From Tigriopus japonicus (Eukaryota; Arthropoda; Copepoda; Harpacticoida; Harpacticidae), in the NCBI GenBank assembly GCA_010645155.1, contig JAAGOF010000287.1, forward strand, positions 233,894 through 297,893: a DNA stretch of 64,000 nucleotides, read 5' to 3'. Below the pieces are notes generated by a model. That model did not search any database. It had not been told where the DNA came from and saw nothing but the letters and a program-made list of their open reading frames with translations. This document shows positions 27,311 through 63,253 of this stretch, piece after piece. The translations under genes and the position numbers were made by a program. Every line of letters starts with the position of its first letter. The first letter of the stretch is position 1.

Positions 27311-27896
27311 ATGGTTCTCGACGAATATGCCTCGGAAGCCACCGACTTCGACGCTGATCACGCTTACAAGAGCACCCCCAAGGCGTCAAACTCGCACCAA
27401 CGCTCACATCGATGGAACCTAAGAGCTCGAAGTCTTGGCAGCAACCCTCCAGCAGCTTATGCTTCTGGCTATGGATCATATTCTGGAGGCTCTGGAGGTC
27501 GTCATGGAGGAAGTTATGGAGGAGGCAGTGGAGGCAGTGGAGCTGGACCAGGTTTTGGAGGCACGGCCAATTGCTGCTGTAATAACAATAATGGATTCAT
27601 GTCGGGGTTTCTGCAATCAGCATGCAGTCAGTTAGACTTTGGGATGTTGGCATTGTCAGGAGCGGCCTTTGGCCTTCTTTACACCGCTGTTACGATGAAT
27701 ATGAGGAAGCGGAAGAGGCGGAAGCGGTCTTTGAAGGCCAAAAAGGTCAAGGCTGCCAGTGAGGCCGAGGGAGACGATGAAGTGTATTTTGTGGTGGACG
27801 ACAGTGATGATGAGGGTGATTTGGAATATGTGCTTTTAAACGAGGATGAGTCGGAGAAAGGTGTTATGGATTCGGTGTTGGACATGCTTTTCACAG
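27311..27896 (+). CDS. Gly-rich single-pass membrane protein, exon 1 (member 1)
   Basis: 195 codons plus one base, ending at donor ACAG/GTACGA. Residues 50-84 are Gly/Ser-rich with Tyr and His; CCC is at 88-90; a hydrophobic helix spans about 110-130; a basic run of the RKRKRRKR type is at 132-139. Then comes an unusually long, strongly acidic region (151-183) not seen in the other members, and a closing segment SVLDMLFTG. The ATG at 27311 is the first in frame; the open frame runs further up without one. A candidate second exon starts at 28052 after TCTATTGCAG, giving about 15 residues (ends FQTPDFLT) before a stop at 28098; this is only a guess. It is separated from the other members by the protease gene on the opposite strand. 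Function unknown. Confidence 0.8.
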
Positions 27897-28201
27897 GTAC
27901 GATATTTTTTTAGATAAACTCGTCGTCACTTAAAAAGGGGTGCCCACCTAAAAGCGCCCTTTCCGTCAAAAATGATTTAATGAAACCATTAAGCAGACCT
28001 ACTTTGCATGAGAACTCCAAAAAATGGCATTGTGTTCACAATCTATTGCAGCTAGCCTTTCCGAAATTTGGTTTCAAACACCGGATTTTTTAACTTAATT
28101 TTTTCATAACTTTTAAAATTGACGAATAAGACAGGTGAATTTTGATTGCAAATTGTATTCGGTTGTACTTCAAACAAGTTCAGGGATGTCATAACGTGTT
28201 A
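27897..28201. other. Gap between member 1 and the protease gene
   Basis: The region lies between two gene ends that face each other. It contains the candidate last exon of member 1 (28052-28098, acceptor TCTATTGCAG). No clear AATAAA was seen for either gene. Confidence 0.4.
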
Positions 28202-31200
28202 TTAATACCAATCATCGTATCCCGAACCATCACCAGATCCACCTGAACCATCACCAGATCCGCCTGAACCATCACCAGATCCGCCTGAACCATCATCAGT
28301 AGGTTTTGGAGTGGTGGGTTTTGGAGTGGTGGGTTTCGGGGTGGTTGGAGTTGATCCAGTCTCGACCAGAATTGGTGCCACGCCGATCTAGCAGAAAAGT
28401 CATATGTCCATTATAATCCGTGTGGATCAAATGTTTGTCCATGCTCTTACATCTTCAATGTAGTTGCAGTTAACTCCTCGCTTCATCTTGAAGTATCCAC
28501 CCTCTCCCCAACTCGCTCCCCAAGAGTTCTTGATTTTCCAATACTTTACCCCGTTGTGAGTTCCATACCCCACAACGGTTACAGCGTGTCCTTGGGTAAA
28601 CGGGTCTTTGCTGAAGTGTAAAAGTTCAGTGCACTTGAGTGCATGTTCAGAAAACCTTTTTATTATTGGGCATGTCGTGTACTGTCATGGTTTTAGGCAT
28701 GAATGTCACAATCAGGCTGTTTTAAGCAATTGGAAAAAACCGGCATACGGTATGTCACATAGATGGCAATTTTGCTCACATTCCTTGGCCTCCCTCTATT
28801 GTTCTCAAAATTACTTTTATTCACTGTTAGAAAAGAGATGTGACAACTTGCGCCACCTGGTGGTAAAAACAACTCTGGGTGTTTTGGTGCAATTTTTGAC
28901 GTTGAGTTATGACCAAAAAACATGTTTCAATGAATGAGTCGTGTTTCAGCTCAAATAGAATTTATGAAGAAAGGGCAATTTTAGGCAAAAAACACAATTT
29001 TGACATCAAGTTCACGAGTATAGGTGTAAAATTAGAAAAATGTTCTACTGTTTTGCTTCTACTCAATAACTCATTTTTGAGCTTTGTTTGAGTCTTCTTG
29101 CTATGGTTTTCTGAACCAAAGGATAGAGGACATCATGAAAACGTTCTTGGAACTTTTCAACACTTACGGGCAAACGTCGATGATACCACCTCCATAATTC
29201 ATAATAGCTTTGCTGAGAGGGCTCCCATCGGCTCCAGTGGAAAAGGCAACCACAACAGCGCCATGTTTGGCCACCAAAGCCATCAAGCCTGCCTCTTTCG
29301 GTTGGTTCACTTCAACCAGTTGGCTAACCTATATTTGAGTAAATCAAGCTTCAAGCTTAGGAACAATTGTAATGGCAAATTTCCCTTACTTACCTTGACC
29401 CCAGTATTTAGATTGTCTGACTCGGGCAAGCAAACTGCAGATTGGACTTCTTTGTAGGGGTCTTTGGTCTCAGGGGGAATGCTACCTCCACGATTTTCGG
29501 TCAGATATTTGATGTACGGTTCGAGCCCTGCTCCGTCGCAACCACTAGCAGACCCACTGAAATTGGAACATTCGATAAAATACACCAATTTCAATGTAGC
29601 GACATATTTGAGTGGATTACTAGACTGCTGGATCGCAGACGACCACATGATTGATTGACAAAACAGAACAATAAACTAAAGAAGCTCTTGGGAGGGAAGC
29701 GTCAACTCGACGACATTGTTTGGCTTTGTTGAAGCATCTAATGTTTGCCATTGTTGTTCCCACTGTCAATCAAGAAGTTCATTTAAAAAAATAGGTTTTG
29801 CAATCAATTCACCCAGTCCTTGTAACGCAAAATAACATGTCTTCAAACCCTTGCATAGGTACCGTATTTTCCCGGTCAAAGGCCTGCATTTTTTTCTCTT
29901 TTAGTTCTGGAATTGTTTTTAGAAAATTCTGCTTTTTTAAAGCTTCATGCTAAAGCCACTATCGCTAGTGTTTTGACGACGCTTCTTCCCCATGAACTTC
30001 CGTACAATAAACCACTTTGCAGCCGGTCATTGTACTGTTTTACCAACCAAGCGGTCGATCGTCTGACATCCAGTAGTCCAGATGTCCAAAATGATGCTTA
30101 CTAATTGCCGGCGCAGTTCAAGAGGGTTTGTTCGGCCAAGTCCAGTGAGTTTGTCAAAGTGGGTTTCTTGATGAGCATGCCAGTTTCAATGCTGGCAACG
30201 GAAGCGAAAATGACGCAAGATCCGCAATTGCCTTGGTTCCTGACCCCAGTCAACTTGCTCGCAGGAGTATGAAACTCGGCAGGAGGGGCATCTCCTGACC
30301 TCATGAGTCGATCTAGATATCTCCTTGACGGTTCATTGATGGTGATTTCTTGACGGTTGTACCCTGTCCGCATTGCCGCATCGATTTTGAAACCTAATTT
30401 GAAAGTGAGAATTCTTTAGGGTTTGGAAGTTTAGGGTTTAGGGTTAGGGTTTTGGTTCTTTGGAAACCTTGTAGCTTTGATTTTTTTGGAGAAAACTGTT
30501 GTAATATTTGTCAGATATGTACGATCACATTTCTTGCCTTAACAATTTGTTGTAATAAGAATTCATCGGCAAAGTTGCAAATGCCTGCACTTTGAAATCG
30601 CTTCAAAGGGTTAAAACAATGTTCAAGCTCTTTTGGTTGAATTAAAGGAACAAGTGATGCATACGAAATAAATGGACAATTTTGAATGACATCTAGTTTG
30701 TCCTGTCATTTGGCTCAGTGTAATCGAACGAATTCAGCTGGAGATTCAGGAGCCAAAATGGCTAGGGATGTGTCAGAGTCGTCTCGAGACTAACCCTCCA
30801 AAAAACCTAATTAATATTCACGAGCCTAATTAGGCTTCTTCGTTTTGCAAATCAATCAAAACGAACGTTCCCTCACATGGCAGCAAACTTGAATTCTGAA
30901 ACCTCCCCAATCCCCACCTGAATTTTTCCGACTACACTCATCCATTCTAAAAGGGCCAATCAGTGTTGAGTTAGGATGTGGGGTTGAGTTGTGATGTTCG
31001 AATTGGCCTTAAGATAATACGTATAAGAACAACAGAATGATATCCTGATATTACAAATCTCAAAAAACCGTTGTGCAACTTGGCCTAAGATTGCGTGTTG
31101 ACATGAATTAGATAGTCCAAAGGTTATAATGTAGACGTGATTATGGTGCTTGGACAATAATTTTCAAAGGGTCGTCAATTTTCCATATTTCAAGTTTTTT

Positions 31201-31699
31201 ACTTCGAAAGTACTCACCCGTTCGATTGGCCAAGGCTTTTGTTCCTTCGATGGAAAGAGCAGTAGGTTTTGCGAAAAAGGTAGACTTAGAGCTTCTAAAC
31301 GCCTCATTTTGCTCCTTAATAAAGGCAGCAGCTTCTTTCAAATTCTCAGCTCGTTCTTCTTCGGTTAAAAACTCAAAGTCGTCGTCTTCCCAATCGTCCT
31401 CGGGAATCAATTGTTTGTACATATCCTCGTCCAAGTCGTCAAAGTCCCTCACATCGTTCATGTCAATTTCTGAGTAGTCATAGTCATCTTCGTCAAAATG
31501 AAGATAATCGCAATCATCGTGGTCCAAGTCATGGATGTCCTCATCAGGATCATAGGACGGATATGCCATAGCTGTAATTGAGAGAGTAATGTAATAATCG
31601 AAAACATTTGATGTTTCCACATCGTTTATTGTATTGTAAAATATACTTACCAAGAGTTGCCACAGCAGCGAAGATGAGACTAAGACATTGAAACCTCAT
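28202..31699 (-). CDS. Papain-family (C1A) cysteine protease precursor
   Basis: Seven exons on the minus strand: 31699-31651, 31571-31218, 30393-30102, 29556-29394, 29328-29168, 28610-28451, 28387-28202, all GT/AG and in phase, 454 residues. Signal peptide 1-18 ([19 protein letters not shown]). A very acidic stretch (about 20-85) is followed by an inhibitor-like prosegment with [18 protein letters not shown], reminiscent of I29. Mature domain from about residue 170: Gln188 and catalytic Cys194 in QGNCGSC, SEQ-like DLAEQ, GCDGAG in place of the usual GCNGG, His348 in [10 protein letters not shown], Asn368 in KIKNSWG. The residue after the catalytic Cys is Val, not the usual Trp. The last exon adds a tail: three Thr-Thr-Pro-Lys-Pro repeats, then Asp-Gly-Ser-Gly-Gly-Ser-Gly repeats, ending YDDWY. 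A secreted or lysosomal endopeptidase is expected. Confidence 0.92.
30419..30462. repeat. Short telomere-like repeat in a protease intron
   Basis: Several TTTAGGG/TTAGGG words in a row (GTTTAGGGTTTAGGGTTAGG and neighbours) within intron 2 of the minus-strand protease. Too short to be more than a simple-sequence tract. Confidence 0.4.
30714..30947. mobile_element. MITE family 1, copy 2 (diverged)
   Basis: The left arm GTGTAATCGAACGAATTCAG and GCCAAAATGGCTAGG match the ends of 2726-2999. The right arm, ending CTACACTCATCCATTC, is more eroded. It lies in intron 2 of the protease gene. Confidence 0.65.
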
Positions 31700-31725
31700 T
31701 GTTAGCAGCTCGTTTCCTATGAGAT

Positions 31726-31759
31726 ACTGACCTTTTCCAAGAAAAGCTCCTATTTTATA
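31726..31759 (-). promoter_or_regulatory. TATA box and initiator of the protease gene
   Basis: On the minus strand TATAAAATA (31759-31751) is followed about 31 bases later by an arthropod-type initiator TCAGT (31730-31726). This places transcription start near 31728 and leaves a 5' leader of about 28 bases before the ATG at 31699. Confidence 0.7.
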
Positions 31760-33184
31760 CATATATTCATAATAACAATATGAAAATGTGGCAGATCCAA
31801 AAAAAAGATTGTTAACAATCTCTCTTTTCACGATGTTCCATAGGATATTTGCAGACACAATAAATTGAGTCATTAAAGACGATATTTGTACCTTAGAAAA
31901 GACAGGATTTGCTTTTTTGATTAGATCAAGATCACTGAATTTCCTGGAGTGGCATTGTGGCAGGCTTGTAATGAGGGTTATGGTTTCCATTAAGATCAAA
32001 TCAATTGCACTCTTTTGCAAATACGAGACCTTGTGTGGACTTGGCGCACTCCTTATTTCAAGTCTCAGCTCCATTAAATAGCGGCAAGAAAATTATTCTT
32101 ACTCAACTCAAAGCTGCATAGTCAAGAGAATGTCGAATGAAAGAGCTTAACCTTTTGTGGTAAATCATAGATCAGATATTTTATCACTCTTGACTTAAAT
32201 CCAACAGAACGCTATTTTAAGCCACAACATGACATTTTTCTACATCGAATGACATCCATTGTATCGATTACTAATCCGAAACGTCTTTAGCTAAAAAGGC
32301 TAGCTGACACTTAGCTCTGAGAGAGCATAACTCTAGATCCGACATTAGATTAACATGAAAATTGAAATATGTAGTCCATTCAATCCAAGCAAAAGAACGC
32401 AGAATTTGCTCAAAAACGTAAATGAGTTGTTTCTTCTAGAAATCATGGTTCGCATCACTAGCCTCCCACTCCAGAAAATTCAGTGCTTCATGCTTAGGTG
32501 CAATTCTCATTGAGAAGTGAAGCAAAGGAGATTTCTTCCTTTTACGTATTTTCCCGTTCTTGGAACAAAGAAGAAAAGTCTCCTTTCAATGAGAGCAAGA
32601 ACACCCATCAAGCTTCGTCTTCATCTTTGTAAAAAAAAAATGTCTCTTTTGCTTCACATTCAAGCCAGAATTGCACCTTTCATTTGACAAAAAAAAACCG
32701 ACAGCTCTCTCTCTCTCTCTATTTGCAAATCTTTTGTTGAGACGTGGTACCAAACGTATTAATAATTTTTATTAGTGGCCAGCTCGACACGAGAAACATC
32801 TGAGACAAAAATTTTGTATGATCAAATGGAAGGATCTATCATTATCCCAGTACCTGAGAAGCAACAAATAAAAGAATATCTTTAAGCTAAGTTAACTTCT
32901 ACAAGGTTACATCCATTTTATTGCTGTGATTCTCAAGCAGAAATATTTGGGTAAAAACTAGCACTTACTAAAAAATGCATGCCTCATTAGAGGGTGCCAG
33001 GTTTTTTGTTCTATCACATCCAATCTAACAGTTATTTAGCACGTCGTTTTCAGACGTTTAATGTAATTGCTTATTGTATATTCCACTCCAACACCAAGGA
33101 GGGGATCAAGGAGTATACGGATTGGGAGCATTGAGTTCTATTAATACTAGAGGGAGTGTAAGCCTAAAAATGTGTCTCCGGTCG

Positions 33185-33541
33185 CAAACTGTTGAGCGGA
33201 CAAAAGTGCGGTATCATTTGAAATATGTGACCAGGCAAATTACAACCATGCAATTGATGAATCAAAGATGGAATTAAGTAATGTTTTTGGTATTTTTTCC
33301 TATTGCTAGTGGTTACTTTCTCGAAAGAACGGAAGACGTTACAAGGTGACCATGTCTTGGATTTGAATACTACAACTTTAAAAGTTACTGATGGGGAAAA
33401 TACCAATTTACCTTTTCGCGTCATGTATCATTAATCCAATACAAATATGGACAAAAATTAACTTGTAGCTTCAAAAACGAGTTTTAAAAAGTTGGTGTTG
33501 ATTCGCATGTTTGGTCACACTAACTGTCCGCTCAACAGTTG
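33185..33541. mobile_element. Inverted-repeat element
   Basis: Ends CAAACTGTTGAGCGGACA and TGTCCGCTCAACAGTTG are inverted copies about 357 bp apart. The left arm plus 30 bases beyond it recurs, inverted, at about 16490-16530 (CCGCACTTTTGTCCACTCAA), so the element or its end is dispersed. Confidence 0.55.
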
Positions 33542-33649
33542 TAAGGGCGACATTTTCCTCATCAATTCAACGCATTCCGCCCCGCTTGCCCAATCAGCCT
33601 GACTAATCCTTGCACGCTTTTTAGTGATTTATAAGTAATCTAAGATTGG

Positions 33650-33815
33650 GAGGGAAGGAGAAGGGGAACAAGGCGTTAATTGCATTTCTGAACTTCCTCA
33701 TTGACGATATCTCCCGCATTTCTTGCGGTAAGCGGTTCCACGACGACCCCGAACGTTCCGAGAAGGCATTTTTTCGGGCAAGAATTCGAGCTGGAGGCGT
33801 CCATAAGTCAATGCC
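33650..33815 (-). pseudogene. Non-LTR retrotransposon relic (ORF C-terminus)
   Basis: The minus-strand translation holds ARKNAFSERSGSSWNRLPQE followed by MREISSMRKFRNAI. This fits the C-terminal pattern of non-LTR reverse-transcriptase ORFs (F-x-x-R-x-x-x-x-W-N-x-L-P, then F-K/R). Only the last 50 or so codons survive. Classified by pattern only. Confidence 0.5.
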
Positions 33816-35770: not shown

Positions 35771-35810
35771 TTTAAATACATGAGAGCGTGATTATTCCGA
35801 TCAGTCAGTC
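35771..35810 (+). promoter_or_regulatory. Putative TATA/Inr promoter before member 2
   Basis: TTTAAATA at 35771-35778 is followed 30 bases later by TCAGTCAGTC (35801-35810), an initiator match. The first ATG of member 2 is about 165 bases downstream. No equally clear pair was seen in front of most other members. Confidence 0.45.
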
Positions 35811-35967: not shown

Positions 35968-36424
35968 ATGACAGGGGGGAGCAGTGAGACCCTAGAGTAT
36001 GCTGACTACGTCCATGAATCAACTAGCAACTCAGTTGACTCCACCCACTATCCAAACACCTATTACGCTCATCCCAGAGCCAAAAAATCCAAGCCCAGAG
36101 CTATGGGGTTTGCTCCAAGACAAGCTTATGCCACAGAATACGCCTCCTACTCTGGGGGTGGCAAGGGCAAAGGTGGCCATGGTGGAGGAGGTCATGGCGG
36201 TGGTTGCTGTTGTCAAGACCACCAAGATGGCTATGGAGGCGGATGTGGGGACAGTAGTCAGCTGAATTTAGGGTTCCTGGCGGCTGGGGCAACTGCCTTC
36301 TATTTACTCTTCACCGCAATTACCATGATGACCAGGCGAAAAAGGGCGTCGGAGCCGTCCATTTTGGCAGGCAGTTACGGGTTTGAGCAACTTGGACAAA
36401 TTGTGGAGGACATTATTCTGACAG
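35968..36424 (+). CDS. Gly/His-rich single-pass membrane protein, exon 1 (member 2)
   Basis: 152 codons plus one base, ending at ACAG/GTAGGC. Polar, Ser/Thr/Tyr-rich start; Gly/His/Lys-rich 63-79; CCC at 80-82 and a further Cys at 93; helix about 100-121 (LGFLAAGATAFYLLFTAITM); RRKR at 123-126; tail ending QLGQIVEDIILTG. A well-formed acceptor (CTTCCTGCTCCTGTCTGTACACAG is pyrimidine-rich; AG at 36480-36481) could start a short second exon of 15 residues to a stop at 36528. Its helix closely resembles members 3 and 4, and together the three make a compact subgroup in 1.3 kb. Confidence 0.82.
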
Positions 36425-36616: not shown

Positions 36617-36875
36617 ATGTCCAGAAGTACTGCCACTGACCTCCTTGGGCTGGGATCTGGGTCTGGTTATGGTGGTGGATATGGAGGCGGCGGATATGGC
36701 TGTGGTTGCCAAAATGACAATTTTGATCTTGGACTTTTGGCTGCCGCTGGTGCAGCCTTTTTTGCCCTCTATACAGCTATCACAATGATGATGCGACGAA
36801 AAAAAAGAGACACTGCAGTTGATTTAACTTTCTTGGATCGATTGGGAGACATTGCTTATGACACCGTATTTGAAG
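36617..36875 (+). CDS. Gly/Tyr-rich single-pass membrane protein, exon 1 (member 3)
   Basis: 86 codons plus one base, ending at GAAG/GTAGGT. One of the smallest members: MSRSTATDLLGLGSG start, Gly/Tyr repeat 14-28, CGC 29-31, helix about 37-59 (FDLGLLAAAGAAFFALYTAI), RRKKR at 60-64, end LGDIAYDTVFEG. A strong acceptor-like site (TTTCCATTCTTTCAAG) ends at 36570, 46 bases before the ATG. Only 192 bases separate it from the donor of member 2 and 128 from the ATG of member 4, so there is little room for a separate promoter. A possible second exon from 36962 would add about nine residues; weak. Confidence 0.82.
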
Positions 36876-37003: not shown

Positions 37004-37283
37004 ATGGCTAGACAAGCCGCTAATGACCTCCTTGGACTGGGATCGGACTCTGGTTACGGAGGTGGACATTCCGGCGGGGGAGGTTATGGCTGTGGTTGCA
37101 AAGACAGCGGCTTCGGAAACTTTGACTTGGGTCTCCTAGCTGCGGGAAGTGTGGCTTTTTTGGCCCTCTATACGGCCATCACCATGATGACACGAAGGAA
37201 AAAGAGATCCATTTCTCTGCAAGGGGGCGTTGAGGATGTTGAGGAGTCAACTCAAGAATGGGTCCACGATATTCTCTTTCAAG
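37004..37283 (+). CDS. Gly/Tyr-rich single-pass membrane protein, exon 1 (member 4)
   Basis: 93 codons plus one base, ending at CAAG/GTAGGG. Close paralogue of member 3: both have the start motif ANDLLGLGS / ATDLLGLGS, CGC (30-32 here), helix about 41-62 (FDLGLLAAGSVAFLALYTAI), RRKKRS at 64-69 and an end motif WVHDILFQG. A downstream frame from 37340 (acceptor TTTTTGTCCGAATGCTTAG) is open to a stop at 37527 and would add about 62 residues in the correct phase. Its composition does not resemble the other candidate tails, so I regard it as possible only. Confidence 0.82.
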
Positions 37284-38463: not shown

Positions 38464-38836
38464 ATGAATTCCATCAGAAAGGGACTTCGTGCTTTTGGGG
38501 CCGCTGCAGCAGGTCGTCAAGATACGGCAGACAGTAATCACGTAACCTCGTCGGTGGCCGGTTCGTACGCCTCTGGCTACGGTCATGGCCACCATTCCGG
38601 TTATGGTTGTTGCTGTTGTGATAAAAAAGAGGACGATGATGGCGGACTTTTGGATGATCAAGAGTTCTTGGCCCTTTTGGGCCTAGGTGCAGCTGCAGTT
38701 CTTTTCTTGAATATGGCCATTACCATGGCAGCGGCAACCCGACGAAGACGCAAGCGTAGCTACCCCAATGAAGCATTTGAGAATGATCCCGCTTGGCCCC
38801 AAATGATGGACCCCTTCTGGGAGACAATCCAAGCAG
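38464..38836 (+). CDS. Cys4 single-pass membrane protein, exon 1 (member 5)
   Basis: 124 codons plus one base, ending at GCAG/GTAGGC. Ala-rich start, Gly/His/Tyr stretch 33-48, four cysteines in a row at 49-52, an acidic run (KKEDDDGG), helix about 68-90 (FLALLGLGAAAVLFLNMAIT), basic run ATRRRRKRS at 91-99, closing PFWETIQAG. The start is the first ATG in frame. The donor is only 133 bases before the ATG of member 6, and no convincing short terminal exon was found there. An acceptor at 38952 would instead continue in frame into member 6. Confidence 0.82.
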
Positions 38837-38969: not shown

Positions 38970-39618
38970 ATGGCTCTTACCGTGAAGAAGACTAGGAAAA
39001 TGTATCAACTGAAAATGAAGCCCAATGCCTCGATCAAAACCTTCGTGGCCATGCCTACCACCGCCACAGAGTCCAAAGAGGAGGACACTGTAGGAAGTGG
39101 TAGTTATGCCAGTTATGATTATCAGCATCCAAGTGAGGATTACTCTTACCACGGATATTCACAATCTTACCAAACCCCGCAAGTGGCGAAAGTATACCCA
39201 TCTGGGGATTACAGCCGTAGTTATCCGAAGGAAGGAGGCCATTCTTACAAGGAGAAATATGAGACCCTTCTTGCCACCTTGGCAAGTAACACTCTGGCTG
39301 GAAGATCCTCTAATGAGGGCATACCTCTGTACCCCTCGTCTTCCAATATTGAGGGCAGTTACGGCCATCACAAGGGTCATGGCCACGGGCATTGCAAATG
39401 CAGTGGCAAAGGCAAGAAGGACAAGGATGATGACAAAGGCTTAGACCAGTTTGGAGCCCTGTTAGGCCTCGGGGCTTTGGCGGGTTTCTTTTTGTTTACG
39501 CAAATCACCATGAATTTGGCTGCCACTCGACGTCGCCGACGTCGCCGAAACTCCCCAAATCAGGACTCATTTTCTTGGGAGCATTCCTCTGGAATGGCTA
39601 TGGACATCTTCTATACAG
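38970..39618 (+). CDS. Tyr/His-rich single-pass membrane protein, exon 1 (member 6)
   Basis: 216 codons plus one base, ending at ACAG/GTAAGA. Basic start, then a Tyr/Ser/Pro/Gly-rich region (43-95), a Gly/His/Lys-rich stretch with CKC at 142-144, an acidic DKDDDKGLDQ run, helix about 160-183 (FGALLGLGALAGFFLFTQIT), seven arginines at 187-193 and closing MAMDIFYTG. The helix and flanking charges resemble member 5, its neighbour. The upstream acceptor at 38952 keeps the frame open through the ATG, so either a separate start or fusion with member 5 is possible. Confidence 0.8.
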
Positions 39619-40922: not shown

Positions 40923-41790
40923 ATGGCTCGGGTGTTCAATGTGATCAGTGACGAGTTGGCCAGAGTTTTTGGTCAAAAACCCAAATGTGATAGCGAAGGC
41001 CAATTGTTCGATTGTGACAATTCAACCCATTTGTCAGGTGACTTAATCTTTGAACCACCAGTGGATGTCAGTACACCCAAATCTGAAGAATTCACTATAG
41101 TTTACGGATCCACAGTCCACAAAATGAATCAATCCGAGGCCGAGGACATGATAAAAACCCATCCGGGCGCCAAGATAACCAGTCCAAAAAGTCCGATCGT
41201 TCCCAGGAAAGGTGCCAATGAACTACAAGAAGACAACCCTCCCGTAACCGGGTCTCCAGACCTCGGTGGGTTTACATACAGACCTTTGAAAACAAATCAC
41301 AGTGAATCTTCCGATCAAATGGTGTCGTCTTCAAATGAGGTTGCCTCTGCCCGAAATTTTGCATCCTCGGGATACCCGTATAACTCCTACTACCCGAGTT
41401 ATAACTCTTACTCGTCTTCATATAACAACTATCCGGCCACATACGGAAATGGAGGAGGTTATTCCACGGGATATCCAGGTACATACGTAGCTCCACCTCC
41501 TCAATATCCGGCACAATCGTACTCTCAGAACCAAAACATGTATGGTGGATACAGTGGGCGGCAATTTGGAGGCATGTATGGCAGCTTTTCCGGTCACGGT
41601 TACGGAGGACATTGTTGCAAGGATGACAATCTGATTGAACTGTTGGCCTTGGGCATTGCTATTATGGCCTTAATGGCGGCAATGGCGCGACGTCGAAGGA
41701 AGAGAGATGTGTCCGATCAAGAGGAATGGCGACCGCCTAATTCGTTTGTTTACGAGTTTGTTGATAATTTGCACTATCTGGCAGGAAAAG
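40923..41790 (+). CDS. Large Tyr/Ser-rich single-pass membrane protein, exon 1 (member 7)
   Basis: 289 codons plus one base, ending at AAAG/GTAAGC; the longest member. Residues 1-140 are not low-complexity and include two cysteines (22, 31), an acidic/polar region and a stretch around EEFTIVYGSTVHKMNQSEAE. Residues 146-230 are Tyr/Ser/Pro/Gly/Asn-rich. CC is at 231-232, the helix about 236-255 (LIELLALGIAIMALMAAMA), RRRRKRD at 256-262, and the closing segment FVDNLHYLAGKG. Unspliced, it would end five codons later. A 29-base intron to an acceptor at 41819 would give another 30 residues, but so short an intron is doubtful. Confidence 0.82.
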
Positions 41791-43517: not shown

Positions 43518-43748
43518 ATGTATTTGAAAGAGGAACAAGTTGGAGCTGGTCGACAGGTTTATGGTGCCTTGACCTCCGGATATGGTCATGGTGCAGCCAT
43601 GTGTCCCGCAGCTCCAGCGGCAGCTCAAGTGAGCTTATTGGAGATGATGGCCTTGGGGATGGCCATGTTTGCCATGTTCCAAGCATTAATGATGACAAGG
43701 AGAAGAAGAAGTGGATCATTGGTTGATTCAGGTTCAGGCAAATATTGA
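43518..43748 (+). CDS. Short single-pass membrane protein (member 8)
   Basis: 76 residues. A short start with GALTSGYGHG, one Cys at 29, an Ala/Pro run, a Met-rich helix about 40-60 (LLEMMALGMAMFAMFQALMM), RRRRS at 61-65. It may simply end at the stop (43746-43748). A GT at the family position (TCAG/GTTCAG, exon end 43731) is in phase 1 but is a poor donor. The helix type groups it with members 7 and 10. The 3' three quarters of the ORF are repeated after the N-run at 44210-44370, which is best read as the same DNA assembled twice. Confidence 0.75.
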   Translation: MYLKEEQVGAGRQVYGALTSGYGHGAAMCPAAPAAAQVSLLEMMALGMAMFAMFQALMMTRRRRSGSLVDSGSGKY

Positions 43749-44446
43749 ATAACAGAGACTTCATTTTGGTCTTGTCCCTATCTATTCCAATGTTTACATC
43801 ATAGATTTTGAAATATCCACTAAANNNNNNNNNNNNNNNNNNNNNNNNNNNNNNNNNNNNNNNNNNNNNNNNNNNNNNNNNNNNNNNNNNNNNNNNNNNN
43901 NNNNNNNNNNNNNNNNNNNNNNNNNNNNNNNNNNNNNNNNNNNNNNNNNNNNNNNNNNNNNNNNNNNNNNNNNNNNNNNNNNNNNNNNNNNNNNNNNNNN
44001 NNNNNNNNNNNNNNNNNNNNNNNNNNNNNNNNNNNNNNNNNNNNNNNNNNNNNNNNNNNNNNNNNNNNNNNNNNNNNNNNNNNNNNNNNNNNNNNNNNNN
44101 NNNNNNNNNNNNNNNNNNNNNNNNNNNNNNNNNNNNNNNNNNNNNNNNNNNNNNNNNNNNNNNNNNNNNNNNNNNNNNNNNNNNNNNNNNNNNNNNNNNN
44201 NNNNNNNNNATGGTGCAGCCATGTGTCCCGCAGCTCCAGCGGCAGCTCAAGTGAGCTTATTGGAGATGATGGCCTTGGGGATGGCCATGTTTGCCATGTT
44301 CCAAGCATTAATGATGACAAGGAGAAGAAGAAGTGGATCATTGGTTGATTCAGGTTCAGGCAAATATTGAATAACAGAGACTTCATTTTGGTCTTGTCCC
44401 TATCTATTCCAATGTTTACATCATAGATTTTGAAATATCCACTAAA
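43588..44446. other. Unmerged contig overlap around an N-run
   Basis: Bases 43588-43824 are identical to 44210-44446 (offset 622), and the N-run 43825-44209 lies exactly between them. The right copy starts mid-gene and the left copy stops at the Ns, as expected when two overlapping contig ends are scaffolded without merging. Confidence 0.85.
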
Positions 44447-45856: not shown

Positions 45857-46493
45857 ATGGCCCCACGAGCCGATCAACAAGCGAAGGAAGACCTGGATCC
45901 TAGCGCCCAAGGGATCCATTCTGTCTCTAGATTCCCGGCATCCCCGTACGGTCCCAACCCTCCAGTGTACCGCCCTAGCCTTGCCCCGTTTAGAGTGCAA
46001 CACCCTTACGGCAAAGACTTTGGAAACCTTGCCAACCACCAATATACCGACACTGACCCGGATGAGGAGGGCTACGACTCTCCTCTGGGGAGCCAAGTTT
46101 ACCGCAAGGACAGTGGGACCAGCCGGTCATCCTACGATACCGCCTACCGTCGTAGTCCTGCATATGCTTCATATTATGACGGGTACCTCAGTGGGTACAA
46201 CAACGCTCAAGCCTCCTATGGAGGAAATTATAACACTGCAGGAGGTCTGGGTGGTGTGGGTGGAGGGTTGGTGGCAAATCGAAGGTCCGGCATGCAGGCA
46301 TCAGCCAGTGGGCTCACGTGTTCGATGCAAGGCATGGACATGAACTTATTCGCTTTAGCTGCTATGGCTGCCTTTTTTGCTATTCAAATGTTATCCTCAA
46401 GTCGTCGACGGAAACGGGACGTTCAGGCACTGGAAGAGCTAGGGGATGCTAACATTAAAATTTGGGATTGGATCTTGGATCTTGGTTGGTCAG
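45857..46493 (+). CDS. Tyr/Gly-rich single-pass membrane protein, exon 1 (member 10)
   Basis: 212 codons plus one base, ending at TCAG/GTAAAC. Pro-rich start, Tyr/Ser/Gly/Asn-rich 92-140, one Cys (155), Met-rich helix about 162-181 (MNLFALAAMAAFFAIQMLSS), RRRKRD at 183-188 as in member 7, and the end segment IWDWILDLGWSG. An acceptor-like TTCTGTTGGTGTAG ends at 45834, 22 bases before the ATG. About 100 bases after the donor is a TTTTTTCTAG/GTAAGTG site (46596/46597). Confidence 0.8.
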
Positions 46494-47426: not shown

Positions 47427-48170
47427 TCAGGAATGGTTGTTAAAAACTCGTCGAGGTGGGATTTGAAACTTATTGAAACTTAACAATGGGTCATCCAATG
47501 TGTAGAATCGTCGTAATGTAGAAGGAAGGAGGTTGTAAAGAGTGGTTGCGCGGTACAGTACAAAGTTTGACTTCAAGGGTTTTACTAACTTTTTGCCGCT
47601 AGATTTGGACTTTACCCTGACTTCACAAGTTATTCCTCTTCGGTCACTAGTATGAAAAGCACACCTGCATTGGGACATAGACTATGAATGCATTTGAACA
47701 CATAAATGATTACGTATCTTTCATACCTACGCTGTAAACTGTATAATCTTAGGTATTTTAACCTATCCCAATAGGACAGTTTTTTCATTCCTCCAATGCT
47801 ACGAGTAAAACAGCGTTGGACCTTTTCTATTTTTTGGAGACCGTTTGAACTAATAGATGCCCATATGGGAGAGGCATATTCGAAATGTGGTTCCACAATA
47901 GATTTATACAATGTCAGCATTGATTTTCGGTCCCTGGCCTTAAATGTTCGGTATATCCACCCACATGTTTGGACGGCTTTAGTGACCTTTATCTGAATAT
48001 GGTCCTCAAATTTGCTCGTGTCTTGGATTTTTATCCCAAGATCTGTTATTGAGGAGGTGCGTTCAATTACTTGGTCTTTATCGTCTAAATATGTGTATCT
48101 GGAGTCTTCAAAAGTCATTACACGGATTCGACACCATTTCTTGGACCTATCTCTATTTCATTGGACTTAG
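47427..48170 (-). pseudogene. Non-LTR reverse transcriptase relic
   Basis: Minus-strand translation of 48118-47630 gives ITDLGIKIQDTSKFEDHIQI, TLYKSIVEPHFEYASPIWAS, LQKIEKVQRCFTRSIGG and LKYLRLYSLQRRYER, the usual C-terminal third of a CR1/Jockey-type reverse transcriptase ORF. A frameshift near 47660 moves to a second frame (47678-47427), which holds the ending RATTLYNLLPSTLRRF. The N-terminal two thirds, including the catalytic region, are missing, so the copy is 5'-truncated and dead. Confidence 0.8.
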
Positions 48171-51585: not shown

Positions 51586-52050
51586 TAGTGCACTATAATA
51601 AAAGAACAGGATCATAAAGTGAGCCATCTAGTGGATTTCATGCGGCAACAGCTGGCAGTTCCCATGATACACGCATTTTTGAAGATTGCAACGGTCATTC
51701 ATCAGTTTTGGACAAACTAAAGTGCCTCAAATGTTGACTAAGTATTGTTAATGGACCTGTGGTGGTTTTTGGTTGAAATTGTTGGTAAAATCCCTTTCAA
51801 ATTGGCATGGAAATCTAACTACTGAAAAGGTAACTCAGGCATGATCCATGCCAAAATTCATCAGAAAAATACCTAAAGTTCTATTTGGAGTTCCGCCATC
51901 AACATTTTAGGCACTTTAGTATGTCCAAAACTGACGAATGACCGTTGCAATCTTCAAGAATATGTGTATTATGGGAACTGTGAGCTGTTGCCTCATGAAA
52001 TCCCCTAGATGGCGCACTTTATGACTGTACTCTTTTGTTATAGTGCACTA
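51586..52050. mobile_element. Long inverted-repeat element
   Basis: 465 bp with arms of about 160 bases. The left begins TAGTGCACTATAATAAAAGA; the right ends TTGTTATAGTGCACTA. Inner parts of the arms match as well (ATTGCAACGGTCATTCATCA and TGACGAATGACCGTTGCAAT). A foldback-type non-autonomous element with no ORF. Confidence 0.8.
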
Positions 52051-56520: not shown

Positions 56521-56881
56521 ATGGGTAACTTCGCCGCTAAAAGCCAACAACTTTACCATGCTTCTGAGGCCGACGCCTTTGATCGTGTGGGCAGGGCCGG
56601 TGTGGCAGCTGCTGCCGAAGCTGGAAATGCCGCCGACGTCGCCGGAGCTGGTTCGAACCTCGTCGGGGCACTCTCTTCTGGCTATGGTGGCCATGGGGGT
56701 GGCTACGGCTACATCCAAGAGGAGGAGTGTCCCGAGGGGATCGACGAAGATCTGGCCTTGCTAATCACGGCTGCGGCCATTGCGGCTGGAGCCTACATCG
56801 TGTTTAGGCAGGTCACCCTTCAACAGGGTGGCCGGAAGCGAAGATCCCCACTAGACCACTTTGGCGATATGTTTTTTTCTG
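56521..56881 (+). CDS. Ala/Gly-rich single-pass membrane protein, exon 1 (member 11)
   Basis: 120 codons plus one base, ending at TCTG/GTAAGT. Ala-rich helical start (17-48), short Gly/Tyr/His stretch 51-64, one Cys (70) in EEECPEGIDED, helix about 78-97 (LALLITAAAIAAGAYIVFRQ), GRKRRS at 104-109 and closing LDHFGDMFFSG. An acceptor-like AATTTTTAG ends two bases before the ATG, the first in frame. The donor has the best consensus in the array. A terminal exon starting at 57049 would add only four or five residues. Confidence 0.82.
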
Positions 56882-57067
56882 GTAAGTTCTGATTTCCATG
56901 TTCTAGTTAGGCGATTTAGATATGGTTAGGACCACCGTTCGGTTGCGTGATTCCCAGGGTGACAATGCAGAATCGAAATGACTTGACTGACTGATTGGGA
57001 ACTTCTTCTTGTTTTGGTACAATACCTTCTCCATCTTTTGTTGTTTAGTCAGTGACCAAAGGTGACC

Positions 57068-57834
57068 ATGTCTCCATCTCCCAGGCAAAAGATTCTGATC
57101 TTGCCAATTCAAGTTCGGCCAAACACGTGGCTCCCTGAGCCTTACGTAAATAGTGCTGTCAAAGTGTCGAGTTCAAAAATCGCAGAACCCAGTGTCTCTG
57201 AAACGATATATTCTTATAGCGACGAGGAACCTGATCCTCCCATGGAAGTGATTGAATACATTTACGACGAGGATCCATCTCAGCCATCGTATTGGCAACA
57301 ACCATCCCGCTCAAATTCCCGATCTTACAGTACCTCGTACTACCCTCCACCCCCAAAATATTTGCAATACCCTCCCAGACCTTCATATCAAAGATATCCC
57401 GGAATGCTGGCTGTTGCTCCACGAANNNNNNNNNNNNNNNNNNNNNNNNNNNNNNNNNNNNNNNNNNNNNNNNNNNNNNNNNNNNNNNNNNNNNNNNNNN
57501 NNNNNNNNNNNNNNNNNNNNNNNNNNNNNNNNNNNNNNNNNNNNNNNNNNAATGCTGGCTGCTGCTCCACGGAGGACTTTTGGGCCCGATTTATTCGATA
57601 ATCCAAATACTGCCCCATCCACAGCCTTTTTCGACCTTCGAGCTCTTGGTCGGGCCTTGGGCACTGGTCTGGTCATGAGTCCATTGACCTACTTGTCAAT
57701 TATCGCTGTGATGTTCATGATCACGATTTGGGTGAATAACCAACTCGTGGCGTACTTGTATGAACTGGGTTACGAACCTGTACCTTACTACGAAACTTTC
57801 CGCTCTGTCCCTCGAAACCATTGGTCCTCCTCAG
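57068..57834 (+). CDS. Membrane protein with gap, exon 1 (member 12)
   Basis: Starts at ATG 57068, 19 bases after an acceptor-like TTTTGTTGTTTAG. The first 119 codons are acidic, then Pro/Tyr/Ser-rich (PPPPKYLQYPPRPSYQRYPG). After the 125-base N-run the frame continues ALGTGLVMSPLTYLSIIAVM through a helix that aligns with the helices of members 13-16, then a Tyr-rich tail and donor TCAG/GTAGAA at 57834. It has no cysteine pair and no basic run after the helix. The 23 bases before the gap (57403-57425) match those after it (57551-57573) with two differences. Collapsing them restores one frame, so little may be missing. Read without splicing, the frame stays open to 58019. Confidence 0.65.
57426..57550. 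other. Assembly gap (N-run)
   Basis: 125 Ns inside member 12. The flanks share AATGCTGGCTG, then TTGCTCCACG / CTGCTCCACG, so the gap may be an overlap with small differences or may hide tandem repeats of the Pro/Tyr-rich part. Confidence 0.7.
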
Positions 57835-58942
57835 GTAGAAAGATGGATGATTATATCAATCACCTGGTCAATGACATTTTGGTTCAACTTTCAAGTCATG
57901 TTTTGCAATGTACGATGGATTTCACTACTCTCTCTCTTCACTTGAGCAAACTCCCAAGTGCACTTATTACGAGATGTGGAAAGTGTGGTGCAAATAAAGA
58001 ACAGAGAGAGGGAGATTGATACAAGTCTCGGATGATGATCACATCATATCTACCAGAAGAAAAAAGTTTCCCTTTAAGGCGAGAATAGCAATGGTCACTT
58101 TCCGCTTGGCGAAAAATTAGTACATAGAAAAAGAGAGACTTGTCGTTCAACAATAAACTTGGTACATATGTTGTTGATCCACAAAATATCATATTCAATC
58201 CCAATATTCTTGATAGATGTCTCGATTTTGTTGTCATCTGGTGTCGCTTTATACAAGAACACCGTGTGGGTATATGGTTCTCAGCACAATGGAGACGAAT
58301 GAACGTGGATTTTTTCTTCCTCAGTACCTCTTTGTAGCAACTGTACTTGATGCGACAAGAGAGAGGCGAGATTCTCACACCGTTAGATGTCCACGTTTTC
58401 TTTAGGAGCAACTCCAACTAGCTTGTTGTGTAATGGGGCTAGAGAGTCGACGTTTTTTCCCATCGAAGCGTCGGAATTTGGGAGCGAGACTGAAGGGCTA
58501 ATAGGTGCCATTATAGTATTGGGATTTTAATCTGAGACTTGGAACACGATCTAACCAACCTTTTTCTCTTCTAGGTAAGTGTCTTACGTTCAAAACCGTT
58601 CATGATGTGTGGGGGGTGAGTTTCTGCAATTAAAGTAAAATGTAGCGGAGATTAACGCCAAGTTGCGAGATTTTGTATGAAAGGTTCCGTGACGTCTATG
58701 TAACCACAAAATTGCTCTTGTTTCTCTTTGCTTGCAACACATTCTCTGACAATTAAGGATCTATTATTGCAATGCCACAGAATTGTGGTTTTAGACTTCA
58801 GAAATAAGCCTCTGGAATGAATCCAAGTACAAGGCTAATGGAAGGGGATTAACTCCACAAATTGTAGCCACCTTTCGAACAGAGCCCAATGTTTTTTGGG
58901 GGGGCCTCTTCAGTTCCCAACCAAACCCCATTCTGAGCAAAC
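57835..58942. other. Spacer between members 12 and 13
   Basis: No other gene supported. It holds the candidate ratchet site at 58574/58575 and an acceptor-like GGCCTCTTCAG ending at 58913, 29 bases before the next ATG. Confidence 0.4.
58575..58581 (+). promoter_or_regulatory. Candidate ratchet (zero-length exon) splice site
   Basis: CCTTTTTCTCTTCTAG is followed immediately by GTAAGTG, the same arrangement as at 46596/46597. The reading as the end of a small 5' non-coding exon of member 13 is equally possible. Confidence 0.4.
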
Positions 58943-59177
58943 ATGTCGTTTTACAGTGAAACTAGTCATGATTACTCCAATTTTGGAAGTGGTAGTGGAG
59001 GCTCTAGCTACGGTCAAGGTCACCATGGCCATTTAGAGTGCTGCCCTCTAGTGGTGGATCCGTTAACTTACATCGCCCTTGTCGGCGGTATCTTGGCAGC
59101 CACATTCTTCTCCAATCAACTCATCACAATGAATATCATGATACGAAAACGCCGACGAAGAGACACCACGGTTCTAG
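58943..59177 (+). CDS. Short Gly-rich single-pass membrane protein, exon 1 (member 13)
   Basis: 78 codons plus one base to a GT at the family position (CTAG/GTTCGA, a weak donor); unspliced it ends at 59200 with eight more residues. Start MSFYSETSHDYSNFGSGSGG, CCPLVVDPLTY with the cysteine pair at 33-34, helix about 41-62 (YIALVGGILAATFFSNQLIT), RKRRRRD at 68-74. The CCPLVVDPL block is shared with member 14 almost exactly. Confidence 0.8.
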
Positions 59178-59470
59178 GTTCGACTTTCACTCTTCATTAG
59201 GGTCTACATATAATACAGACATCTCCCGTTAGATCAGGAAAGTTTTGCAAGTACTCCCAACTTAAACTAAAAGCCTGAATGTTTCAAGAGAGTCTTGTGC
59301 TGAGATGTGGATTGAATTGGGCGAAAGTGCCCATGTATTGTCACCCATCTTGTCCAGTTTAGCATGACATATGGTAGATTTGATTTTGGGCTAAGAGCAA
59401 TGAGTTGGCAAATTTGAGATCCAATGGCTCATATTTCACCAGTTGAAGCGGAATACCCAAAGAAACAGCA

Positions 59471-59837
59471 ATGGATTTCTACCTCTGGCCCAAAACCGAG
59501 AAGTTTGTTCGACATAGGCCGAGATACTCTTACAGACCTCGGTCTTCTTACCCCACTTCTACAACCACCACAACAACCTCAGTGCCCTACCATGATTACG
59601 ACTACTACAATTACGTGGACAACTCTCGTTATGGTCAGAGTAGTGATATTGATTATGGAACGAGCTATTCGCATCACTCGCAGATGTGTTGTCCGTTAGT
59701 GGTGGATCCATTGTCCTTGGTCGCCCTTATTGGATCGGTTGTGGGTGCGGCCTTTTTCCTCAATACCACCATCACCCCGGCTTTAGGAATGGGTGGGGCA
59801 GCCCCAGCTCCAACGACCTTTTTTAGATTTGGCAGAG
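59471..59837 (+). CDS. Tyr-rich single-pass membrane protein, exon 1 (member 14)
   Basis: 122 codons plus one base, ending at AGAG/GTACGA. Basic/aromatic start, a Thr run (30-36), Tyr/Asp/Ser-rich 39-70, CCPLVVDPLSLVALIGSVVG with the pair at 73-74, helix about 81-102. It lacks the basic run after the helix and ends in an Ala/Pro segment and FFRFGRG. The other frame with an ATG at 59424 does not contain the family features. A good acceptor (ATTCAGTGTCCTCGCAG) ends at 59949; the exon 59950-60011 would add FEKKLTKCYVSFETSKKMI after a Gly, with one Cys. This is among the more convincing second exons. Confidence 0.78.
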
Positions 59838-61136
59838 GTACGAAAGCAGTCGCTCTTGTAGTTTAAAAAGTGTTTTAATTGGCTCAATTTTAGCATTATA
59901 ATTCAAAGACTACGATAATTGGTCCTCCAAATATTCAGTGTCCTCGCAGGATTCGAGAAGAAATTGACAAAATGCTACGTTTCATTTGAAACGTCAAAAA
60001 AAATGATTTGAATTGCATTTCCCGCCAAGTATTCAACTTTTTACGGGATTTCCTTTTTTTCCTCTTATCCTTTGGCGACACTGTCCCAAGTGGGACCACT
60101 TTATTCCATGAGCACATTATCTAATGATTGTGCTTCTGGCTCAATAATGAACTTCAGAATGATGCTGAGGAGACAACCTAACAAAGGCAATGCTAATCTA
60201 ATCTTTAAGTTGTAAAACCAATATAATGAAAACCAAGAGATTTGGCATTTGCTGGCTGTCACTTACATTTAAATAAACCTTGAACACTTTATTTATGGGT
60301 GCCCTATTTTGTTCTCATAATGGACAACTTGCATCACAGCAAACCTTATTAAGGAAACAAAGTTGCGCTTTAATTTAAGAAAAATGACAATTGTTTGCGG
60401 ATTTATTTTAACGCTAAATGGAATGGGATTCCGTGTAAAGAAAGTGAAAAAACGTTCTTAGATCCTTTTACTAGCATTTTAAAGAAAGTTTTGTCCTTTA
60501 TTTTTTTCATTTTTTTGATAATGATTCATTCGTTCGAACTCTTGATGCGGTCGACAAATGGAATTTTGAAGAACTCCCACCCATTTACGACCTGGTAAAT
60601 TTAAACGAGAAGAAAACGTGAAAAAGTTGCATTGGCAAATGGTAATCAAAGTGAAGAAACTGAAAATACTATGTTCACCAATAACATTTTATCGAAATGA
60701 TAAAAAGTTTACAAGCTAAGCTAATCAAAAAAAATGATAATAGAACAATACACACACAAAAAGGATAAGAAGAAATCAGGAGTGAGTCACAAAAAGAAGG
60801 CTCGTTATCTGAAGCTCAACTGTTATCAACATGCAAGCAAACAACTCTTTTAATTGATGAACTTAAGGATGAAATGGCAAATTAAAAATAAGGCCTGTCA
60901 CTCATTAAACTTTCCCTGCACAATTCATGCATCCCAAGATATCCTATTCACGCACTCCTCTGGCTGAAATTGAGTGTCCGTTTCAATCGAAAGTGCCCAT
61001 TTCGGCAACTTTAATAGAAGCGATGCATCCTTTTCGCAATAAAAAGAACCTACTTTCGAAAACGGTCAGACAAGTCTACATAGGAGCTCCAAAGTTCAGG
61101 ATCCTCAGTTACCTTTGAATACCCAAATCGTTCACA
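59838..61136. other. Spacer between members 14 and 15
   Basis: Contains the candidate second exon of member 14 (59950-60011) and the dispersed repeat at 60297-60393. No other gene supported. Confidence 0.4.
60297..60393. repeat. Dispersed repeat copy B
   Basis: Same orientation as bases 1-108 of the window: GGGTGCCCT, TTGTTCTCA and AGAAAAATGACAAT are shared. Confidence 0.55.
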
Positions 61137-61521
61137 ATGTGCTTTGGATTCGGACAAGAAAAGGAGCAGTTTGCTTTGACCAAGCCAAAACTTGGACATC
61201 GATTGCGACGACCTTTTAAGGAAGATCTGAACACAGGATCGTCTTCGGTGAATTATGGAGATTATAGTTATAGTTACAATGACTTGGATTTGGCAAAGTC
61301 GGATAAAGGTTTTGATTATCAATATGAGACGGGCGTTTCGACAAAATATGCTGAGTGCTGCCCAATTGTGGCGGATCCATGGGCAGTTGCCACACTTTTT
61401 GGGGCAATTATTTTGGGGGCAGTGGTGCTTAATAGAACAATACCTGCGAATTTGACTGCAAGAAGTTTTAGAGATCAAGAGTACATTTTTGATGAAGACA
61501 GCTTTTTTAGAGTTGATGAAG
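61137..61521 (+). CDS. Tyr/Asp-rich single-pass membrane protein, exon 1 (member 15)
   Basis: 128 codons plus one base, ending at GAAG/GTAAGC. Basic start, Tyr/Ser/Asp-rich 38-65, AECCPIVADPWAVATLFGAI with CC at 74-75, helix about 81-100 (WAVATLFGAIILGAVVLNR), then an acidic tail (DQEYIFDEDSFFRVDEG) with no Arg/Lys run. The first ATG in frame is used. A possible second exon starts at 61682 (TCTGGATATTACAG), ten residues to a stop at 61713; weak. Confidence 0.78.
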
Positions 61522-62702
61522 GTAAGCCATGAGATTTTGATTGCAATTATTCTAAATGGCGTTTAAATGAACATTGGGATAGAGAAGCGTTACACTGATT
61601 TAAAACGTGATCTAATTCCGTCAACAAAGTGTGGCTCACGAGTATTCCTAAAACGTGTGCTTTCAAGTCTGGATATTACAGACATCAAAGAACCACAACT
61701 TGGTAAATGGTAGATGTTGAAAAAAAGGGATCGCCAAATGCGAACGACATGCTTGCTTTTAAGTAGACAATCCTAAACAGACTCTTTTTGGCCCAAAAAT
61801 GGTTGTCAAACGAACCTCAAATACTCACTAAAATTCTTTGAAAGTTGATGAATTAAAGCTCTCATAACATCACTTTGTTGAATGCAATTTGCTCAAAAAA
61901 AATGTCAGTCATTCAACCCGGATAAGTGAACCGGGTGATATCCTACTAAAAATGCTGGTTATTGAACCTAAGTAATTCAAATATTCTTCACAAATGTGGG
62001 ACACTCAATTTTGGAATTGAACCCGATTCATCTTTTCTTCATTTTTGAAGCCTATTGCGGAAAGTTTTGTCAACCTAGAGACGCAAAAGAAATTTGTTTA
62101 ACAAAAGTGTCGGTCACTCAACCTTTACCTTTAGTGCATTGCCTCTTCGTATTCTAGCTTTGCGGAACTTTCGATAAAATCGTCTGTCACTCAACCTCTT
62201 CTCGCCCCAACATTTTACCGTTATTAAGGATCAACTGATCACACCAACAATCTTTTATTACCAAGAAATGAGAACGATGGTTTACAACTGGAACAGCCCC
62301 TCGGATTTTATGGCGTTTGTGTTGCTTCAGGTTCTTGGCCGTCAATCTTGAGACGATCGTTGTTCGAATTTAATTTGTGCCACAGGGCTTTGAATTTTCT
62401 CCCCCATGGAAGATGATCTCTTAGGTGTTGGGGAATCGAAACGGGAATACTCAATAATTGTCGAAAAAAGATCTGCCTCTCTCAGTCAGACCGCAATTAG
62501 TTATCTCGCCGTTCATCCAATGAGCGTTCTTCTCTGTCCAAACTGTTACAATCTCGAGGGGTTGACCAACATTTGAGTTATCTCTATCTCGGAGATCAGA
62601 TTCGAACCCCAAGAAAGTGAAAGTACAGAAGGATCCCCACTCAATCCTACCCAGAATTGTTCTTTTGCCGTCTAGTTGTGAATCTAAATCTCAAGAGTCA
62701 GC
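61522..62702. other. Spacer between members 15 and 16
   Basis: Holds scattered copies of the GTCGGTCACTCAACC motif (61903, 62109, 62181). An acceptor-like TTCTTTTGCCGTCTAG ends at 62675, 27 bases before the next ATG. No gene supported. Confidence 0.45.
61903..62200. repeat. Dispersed copies of a TGTCGGTCACTCAACC motif
   Basis: The motif occurs at 61903 (as TGTCAGTCATTCAACC), 62109 and 62181. These are loosely spaced, diverged relatives of the array at 63766-64000. Confidence 0.55.
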
Positions 62703-63253
62703 ATGTCTTTTGCCAAGGAAGATTTTTATAGTGACTATGACAGTGGTTCAACACTGTCTAAGGTGCCATATGAATCCTCGAAAAGAGTAGATAATGTGGG
62801 TGCACTTAGTGGTTATGGCCATTCTGGTTACGGGCAATCCGGATATGGTGGTTCTTATAAACAAGAGTGTTGTCCAATTGTCATAGACAAACTCTGTTTA
62901 CTTGCCATCTTATTCGGAGTGGTTGGTGCCACTTTTTTCCTCAATCAAGTGATCCTTATGACTACATTCACTCGCAAACGGAAAAGAAGCCTTTTTAGTG
63001 ACATCTTTTGGATTGGTAAGATCATCTTGAAACCACTTGAAAGTCAAAAAAACTAGTGTTTGATTTAGGAGCGGGTAACAATATGTCTTACTTGTACCCA
63101 CTTCGTTCTTGAATCCTTTCGTCAGAAGTGAGGGAAGGAGCACGTTTACCCAAACAAACTCCTTTGCTGATTTCTCCAAGTCCCGTTACAAACAAAAGGT
63201 GTTTGGAGGACTCAGAGCAGATCGTAAAAGAGGTTGTCAAGGCGAGAGGATAA
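62703..63253 (+). CDS. Gly/Tyr-rich single-pass membrane protein, two exons (member 16)
   Basis: Exon 1, 62703-63015 (104 codons plus one base, donor ATTG/GTAAGA): MSFAKEDFYSDYDSGS start like member 13, Gly/Tyr/His 37-51, ECCPIVIDK with CC at 56-57, helix about 64-86 (LCLLAILFGVVGATFFLNQV), RKRKRS at 91-96, end LFSDIFWIG. Proposed exon 2, 63126-63253, after the acceptor CTTGAATCCTTTCGTCAG: it keeps the phase and adds 42 residues including PLLISPSPVTNKRCLEDSEQ and a charged end before TAA. The intron would be 110 bases. Exon 1 is well supported; exon 2 is the most convincing tail in the window but remains a prediction. Confidence 0.75.

Follow-up and report, generated by a model that had tools for sequence, protein, structure and literature searches.

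What a long tandem row of similar membrane-protein exons encodes, a family of separate genes or the interchangeable parts of a single one, is the question raised by this locus of the copepod Tigriopus japonicus. The window, meaning the whole stretch of DNA that was analysed, is 64,000 nucleotides long and corresponds to C43:233894-297893; the genome searched comprises 194.85 Mb on 158 contigs. The window array makes up about a third of what is very probably a single giant gene, its members being alternative first exons, each of which can be joined to one shared constant 3′ part. If so, the proteins made by this gene number in the dozens and have everything in common except the front part that anchors them in the membrane.

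Extent and content of the array

A scan for a helix plus basic run covered C43:193894-346999, and a set of 46 exons on C43 was picked by eye. About 46 variable exons thus lie in and around the window, every one on the plus strand, as the preliminary description had stated for the part visible to it. Fifteen distinct members, each with a hydrophobic helix, are located in the window, and the array continues for about 28 kb beyond window position 63253.

27311..27896, plus strand: variable first exon 1, donor CAG|GTACGA
35968..36424, plus strand: variable first exon 2, donor CAG|GTAGGC
36617..36875, plus strand: variable first exon 3, donor AAG|GTAGGT
37004..37283, plus strand: variable first exon 4, donor AAG|GTAGGG
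38464..38836, plus strand: variable first exon 5, donor CAG|GTAGGC
38970..39618, plus strand: variable first exon 6, donor CAG|GTAAGA
40923..41790, plus strand: variable first exon 7, donor AAG|GTAAGC; isoform X1 of T. californicus LOC131891730 starts with its ortholog (86% identity)
43518..43745, plus strand: variable exon 8, with a weak donor or none, perhaps no longer functional; 3′ part recurs at 44210 across an N-gap
45857..46493, plus strand: variable first exon 9, donor CAG|GTAAAC
56521..56881, plus strand: variable first exon 10, ECPEGID type, donor CTG|GTAAGT; clusters with P0004, P0008 and P0012 (93/95)
57068..57834, plus strand: variable exon 11, containing N-gap 57426-57550; donor CAG|GTAGAA, start and reading frame through the gap all uncertain
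58943..59197, plus strand: variable exon 12, CCPLVVDPLT type, weak donor only
59471..59837, plus strand: variable first exon 13, donor GAG|GTACGA, without RRKR run
61137..61521, plus strand: variable first exon 14, donor AAG|GTAAGC, without RRKR run
62703..63015, plus strand: variable first exon 15, CCPIVID type, donor TTG|GTAAGA
C43:298424-325075, plus strand: 31 further variable exons downstream of the window

The sixteen exons counted earlier are reduced to these 15, the sixteenth being a repeated 3′ piece of exon 8 (exon 43509). An exact 237-bp repeat (window 43588-43824 and 44210-44446) flanks a 385-bp N-gap (43825-44209) on both sides, so the second copy is most likely an assembly duplicate and the source of the additional exon. 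The sequence features attributed to the exons otherwise stand: the helix is present in 15 of 15, a Cys close to it in 14, and an RRKR-type basic run in 12, being absent from exons 57252, 59447 and 61119. The same scan also gave eight minus-strand ORFs in the central 103 kb and six flank ORFs, and, judged by eye, none of these has the Gly/Tyr and Cys parts.

Each array exon has its own ORF, with an in-frame ATG ahead of the helix in 42 of 46; in the other four none was seen, and one of these sits behind an N-gap. A block of related exons of the KDVKFGIVDDNCDG type (C43:319615-321422, about window 85722-87529) includes three without an in-frame ATG before the helix, which may depend on an upstream mini-exon or a different start. 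A two-exon cassette was considered for this ATG-less block (C43:319.6-321.2 kb), and no convincing upstream exon was found.

The array had been described as belonging to no named family, and searches of Pfam, NCBIfam and, by profile, the PDB agree with this, returning nothing above the curated cut-off. The Pfam search covered 10 of the 15 window exons (two extending slightly past the donor), the constant part and 55 relatives, and NCBIfam was searched with six proteins. Sub-threshold matches were weak, scattered and not common to the family. Within the Pfam scope (10 of 15 window exons, constant part, 55 relatives), no match to cadherin repeats, the UDP-glucuronosyltransferase (UDPGT) domain, or Ig and FNIII domains was obtained. 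The insect DM4/12 and Osiris-like families, considered as candidates, gave no Pfam match at E<=10 with the constant part or the 10 window exons searched, or at E<=0.1 with the 55 relatives. AlphaFold models were poor (pLDDT 57.5 and 59.9), and Foldseek with a weak model gave no match at E<=0.001.

A single constant part

Located 249 bp past the donor of the last variable exon is a phase-1 acceptor (AACTTTTACAG|GT), followed by a constant part that occurs once on C43. Its sole other match in the genome (E<=10) lies on C13, in a locus of the same build.

C43:325325-326256 (extrapolated window 91432-92363), plus strand: constant part, four exons, 246 aa, from sequence reading
C43:325325-325528, 325588-325822, 325887-325968 and 326038-326256 (including the stop), plus strand: the constant exons, which agree with T. 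californicus X1-X3
C13:1164372-1173129, minus strand: a further locus built in the same way but on a smaller scale, its constant part being paralogous

On C13, at least six first exons of this build lie on one strand upstream of the paralogous constant part. Whole-genome searches with four different first exons gave at least 28, at least 11, at least 8 and at least 11 matches at E<=1, and the matches listed all fall on C43 (plus strand) or C13, apart from one weak match on C6 (E=0.6). The view of the array as a tandem family of separate genes is contradicted by this arrangement, in which one constant 3′ part outside the window appears to serve all exons.

The reading frame at the exon ends fits such joining. 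A phase-1 end had been proposed for all members, and a listed phase-1 donor is found in 13 of 15 window exons, its phase fitting that of the constant-part acceptor. When donors after the helix were ranked in any phase, the top-scoring one was phase 1 in 43 of 46 array exons and phase 2 in three; among 51 minus-strand helix ORFs, used as a control, phase 1 was best in 17. The phase-1 excess is therefore not due to chance. The any-phase best donor coincides with the initially listed donor in 41 of 46 exons. Exon 83491 is one of the three whose any-phase best donor is phase 2; the listed donors of this exon and of exon 85722, both far from the window, are phase 1, with lower scores at their revised positions.

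The joins themselves come from the records of relatives and, for one C13 exon, from record P0068, rather than from C43's own transcripts. By protein, the closest named relative is T. californicus, whose constant part is 94.7% identical (233/246). The database isoforms X1, X2 and X3 of its gene LOC131891730 have three different first exons, which match C43 exons 274804, 299469 and 323647 at 86, 71 and 91% identity, and a constant part that is 100% identical among them. Protein records of related species likewise show different first exons leading into the same constant part at exactly this junction. Of 69 catalogue proteins, 52 passed the junction filter; under a slightly different filter, 53 catalogue proteins together with the C43 part of this genome formed 32 groups with constant parts at least 94% identical. 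In six groups, T. californicus included, constant parts are 96-100% identical and first exons just 23-39% alike, the five groups besides LOC131891730 holding two to four different first exons each. Constant-part identity is at least 99% in five of the six; P0004 and P0011, at only 96.4%, could represent two species.

Most of the group proteins come from contigs of 1-2 kb in which no intron breaks the constant part, and they are therefore taken for cDNA. P0045 appears to be a precursor in which a terminal-type exon and the constant part are still separated by a short intron. The catalogue relatives other than T. californicus are presumably copepods. P0068, from a 1.6-kb contig, agrees by eye with the C13 locus except for the first residue, and in it exon C13:1169307 is joined to the constant part, three nearer first exons being skipped.

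Proposed topology and processing of the product

The product would be a type II membrane precursor with a lumenal constant part, an orientation that the motifs make slightly the probable one. The variable exon would supply a cytosolic low-complexity tail rich in Gly, Tyr, His and Ser with juxtamembrane Cys residues, followed by a signal-anchor helix and a furin-like R-x-K/R-R site. The constant part would lie in the lumen and bring another furin-like site together with a helical domain of the form CX6C...CX6C. Cleavage would then free one common secreted module from many interchangeable anchors, and the array would diversify when, where and how a single cargo is delivered while leaving the cargo unchanged. 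The fuller picture, of a locus with some 46 promoters and first exons, each bringing its own cytosolic tail, anchor and protease site to one invariant secreted module, is put forward tentatively and falls somewhat short of probable.

The lumenal placement of the C-terminus is suggested by two putative proprotein-convertase sites and a module that reads as disulfide-bonded and helical. Of 52 first exons (46 on C43 and six on C13), 40 have a basic run behind the helix that ends in R-x-K/R-R, with S or D at P1′ in 37 of 48, against 21% expected from composition. Of the 32 groups, 27 have a second R-x-K/R-R in the linker of the constant part, as compared with 0.2 in shuffled sequences. The five groups without it include T. 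californicus, and hence this genome, where KR alone is kept. The CX6C...CX6C pattern occurs in all 32 constant-part groups.

The same variable-first-exon gene may also be read with reversed topology, in which the Gly/Tyr-rich tail lies outside, RRKR acts as a stop-transfer signal, and the constant part forms a common domain in the cytoplasm, as it does in clustered protocadherins. By the positive-inside rule, the charge balance across the helix, with a mean net charge of -1.5 before it and +3.5 after it, favours an N-out/C-in orientation. The basic run is also tight against the helix, and a furin site hard against the membrane is awkward for a type II protein. N-glycosylation sequons show no enrichment (43, with 41.5 expected by shuffling and 426 of 1000 shuffles reaching that number), which agrees with the reversed orientation, and they are accordingly not used as support for a lumenal constant part. 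The weakness of the AlphaFold models likewise counts against the lumenal reading. However, the two conserved R-x-K/R-R sites, in most cases with S, D, E or A as the next residue, and the four invariant Cys residues fit the secretory lumen better, and no N-terminal signal peptide is evident by eye, although some tails exceed 200 aa. The reversed orientation is thus a real but rather doubtful competitor to the type II precursor.

Exon choice

For the gene with alternative first exons, each first exon would carry its own promoter, and promoter choice would select the exon. The donor of the chosen exon would then be spliced to the constant acceptor across the intervening first exons, over distances of up to 63.5 kb. 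Seven motifs were screened at three lengths. Among them TCAGT, which we take to resemble the arthropod initiator, occurs within 100 nt upstream of the ATG in 14 of 41 usable exons; shuffled sequences gave 8.2 and reached the observed number in 1 of 200 cases. The reverse complement of TCAGT shows no enrichment (3, with 3.7 in shuffles). The TCAGT enrichment lends modest support to one promoter per exon. TATA-, CAAT- and TCATT-like words upstream of the ATGs are not enriched, and a k-mer search for a shared promoter motif gave nothing clear beyond TCAGT.

Alternatively, the exon could be chosen on a single long pre-mRNA, by spliced-leader trans-splicing or alternative splicing, instead of by a promoter of its own. 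Spliced-leader trans-splicing has been reported in calanoid copepods (PMC4664967), which speaks for this route. The upstream [ACT]CAGT words can also be read as acceptors, and an in-frame ATG is missing from four exons. Against this, the sequence ahead of the CAGT sites averages 0.55 pyrimidine (0.50 in the region), which only just reaches the 0.55-0.75 of the four constant-part acceptors, a weak argument; in addition, isoforms X1-X3 begin with a Met inside the variable exon. Selection on one pre-mRNA is considered unlikely. Both this possibility and the reversed topology are variants of the variable-first-exon architecture and are compatible with its high probability.

Exon integrity and spacing

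An array of this length could also be mostly a graveyard, in which few exons are used and the remainder are decaying duplicates. Exons 43509 and 58937 have weak donors only, exon 57252 is disrupted by an N-gap and has a poor donor (score 1.4), and an ortholog among the T. californicus isoforms is known for three array exons only. Nevertheless, donor scores in the initial listing are at least 2 in 35 of 44 exons and at least 0.7 in 43 of 44 (one is -0.5 at its revised position). The frames are open, the helix, Cys and furin-like site are mostly retained, and some exon types are common to other species, all of which makes extensive decay improbable.

Separate genes with private downstream exons are hardly credible: each exon does have its own ORF and usually its own ATG, but the distance from donor to next ORF is below 500 bp in 24 of 43 cases and below 200 bp in 11, which leaves little room for such exons, comparing 1276 ORF pieces outside the exons (at least 16 aa) with one another across the window revealed no recurrent exon, the array has a single constant part, and the isoforms of relatives have theirs in common. 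The best-matching pieces in that comparison came from the N-gap duplicate and from an inverted repeat at 51.6-52.0 kb.

Age and spread of exon types

An exon tree was built from 96 helix cores over 54 columns, with 47 of 88 inner branches unresolved. The ICPDL type (98/96 support) unites seven array rows with three from other species, the CCPPVID...RQVVID type (99/97) four array rows with two from other species, and the ECPEGID type forms a grouping at 93/95. Apart from T. californicus pairs, two groupings across species are strongly supported, which indicates that part of the exon repertoire predates the species split. Adjacent near-copies, such as exons 80055 and 81107, point to recent local duplication. 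The earlier characterisation of the family as lineage-specific and expanding therefore holds in part: near-copies side by side speak for recent duplication, but two exon types are common to other species. The only named species with matches is T. californicus. Taken jointly with the tentative reading of one cargo on many anchors, and graded no higher, the two paralogous loci on C43 and C13 may represent an old system that has been retained.

Relation to known systems

Like known variable-first-exon clusters, the system has tandem same-strand exons (46 on C43, at least six on C13), a single constant part per locus and matching phase-1 ends. At the mRNA level, different first exons with the same constant part are found in relatives, and P0068 shows one exon of the C13 locus joined in this way. 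First-exon arrays of this kind were found for protocadherins and UGT1 in vertebrates and for sDscam in chelicerates, all of which vary the recognition or substrate part.

The copepod gene resembles vertebrate clustered protocadherins in its numerous same-strand variable first exons and common constant 3′ part, but it has no cadherin domain. Furthermore, the protocadherin constant part is a cytoplasmic tail, whereas that of the copepod gene is probably lumenal and cut off. In chelicerates, variable cassettes stand in tandem in the 5′ region of sDscam genes, and a protein generally takes one of them together with the constant 3′ part, an organisation likened to that of protocadherins (PMC4835542). 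The arthropod setting and the tandem 5′ units ahead of a constant 3′ part, as that source outlines them, are shared with the copepod gene. The sDscam cassettes are, however, described there as Ig domains over two or four exons, whereas the copepod unit is mostly one exon with a low-complexity tail, helix and furin-like site and no Pfam domain. The layout also recalls the UGT1 cluster, which is presented in PMC3325998 as encoding glucuronidating enzymes; the copepod gene gave no UDPGT match. Its closest relative is T. californicus LOC131891730, annotated as an "uncharacterized" protein, for which three isoforms with array-type first exons were found.

The copepod locus adds a crustacean case to these architectures, and its protein family has no known relative by the searches run. 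No paper on this gene, or describing a comparable array in crustaceans, copepods included, was among those listed from the open-access literature. What varies in this case is the front part by which a precursor, probably a cleaved one, is anchored in the membrane. If one cargo is indeed released from many anchors, the logic of protocadherins, Dscam and UGT1, in which the recognition part varies and the effector is constant, would be inverted. The locus raises the question of why there should be so many ways of presenting one module, and the selection of a single first exon out of 46 can be studied in this copepod. It also serves as a warning that automatic annotation can reveal only a few isoforms of such loci.

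Other elements within the window

Several further elements are located among the array exons or near them. A fragment of a papain-family cysteine protease lies inside the array on the minus strand at 30104-30415 (PF00112, E=5.4e-10), and a very acidic ORF of 184 aa, without a Pfam match, occupies 31144-31695, also on the minus strand. The minus-strand ORF at 47633-48157, which has no Pfam match at E<=0.1, looks by eye like the C-terminal end of a reverse transcriptase from a non-LTR retrotransposon. The inverted repeat at 51586-51737 and 51899-52050 has 152-nt arms that are 88% complementary and separated by 161 nt, and it is possibly MITE-like.
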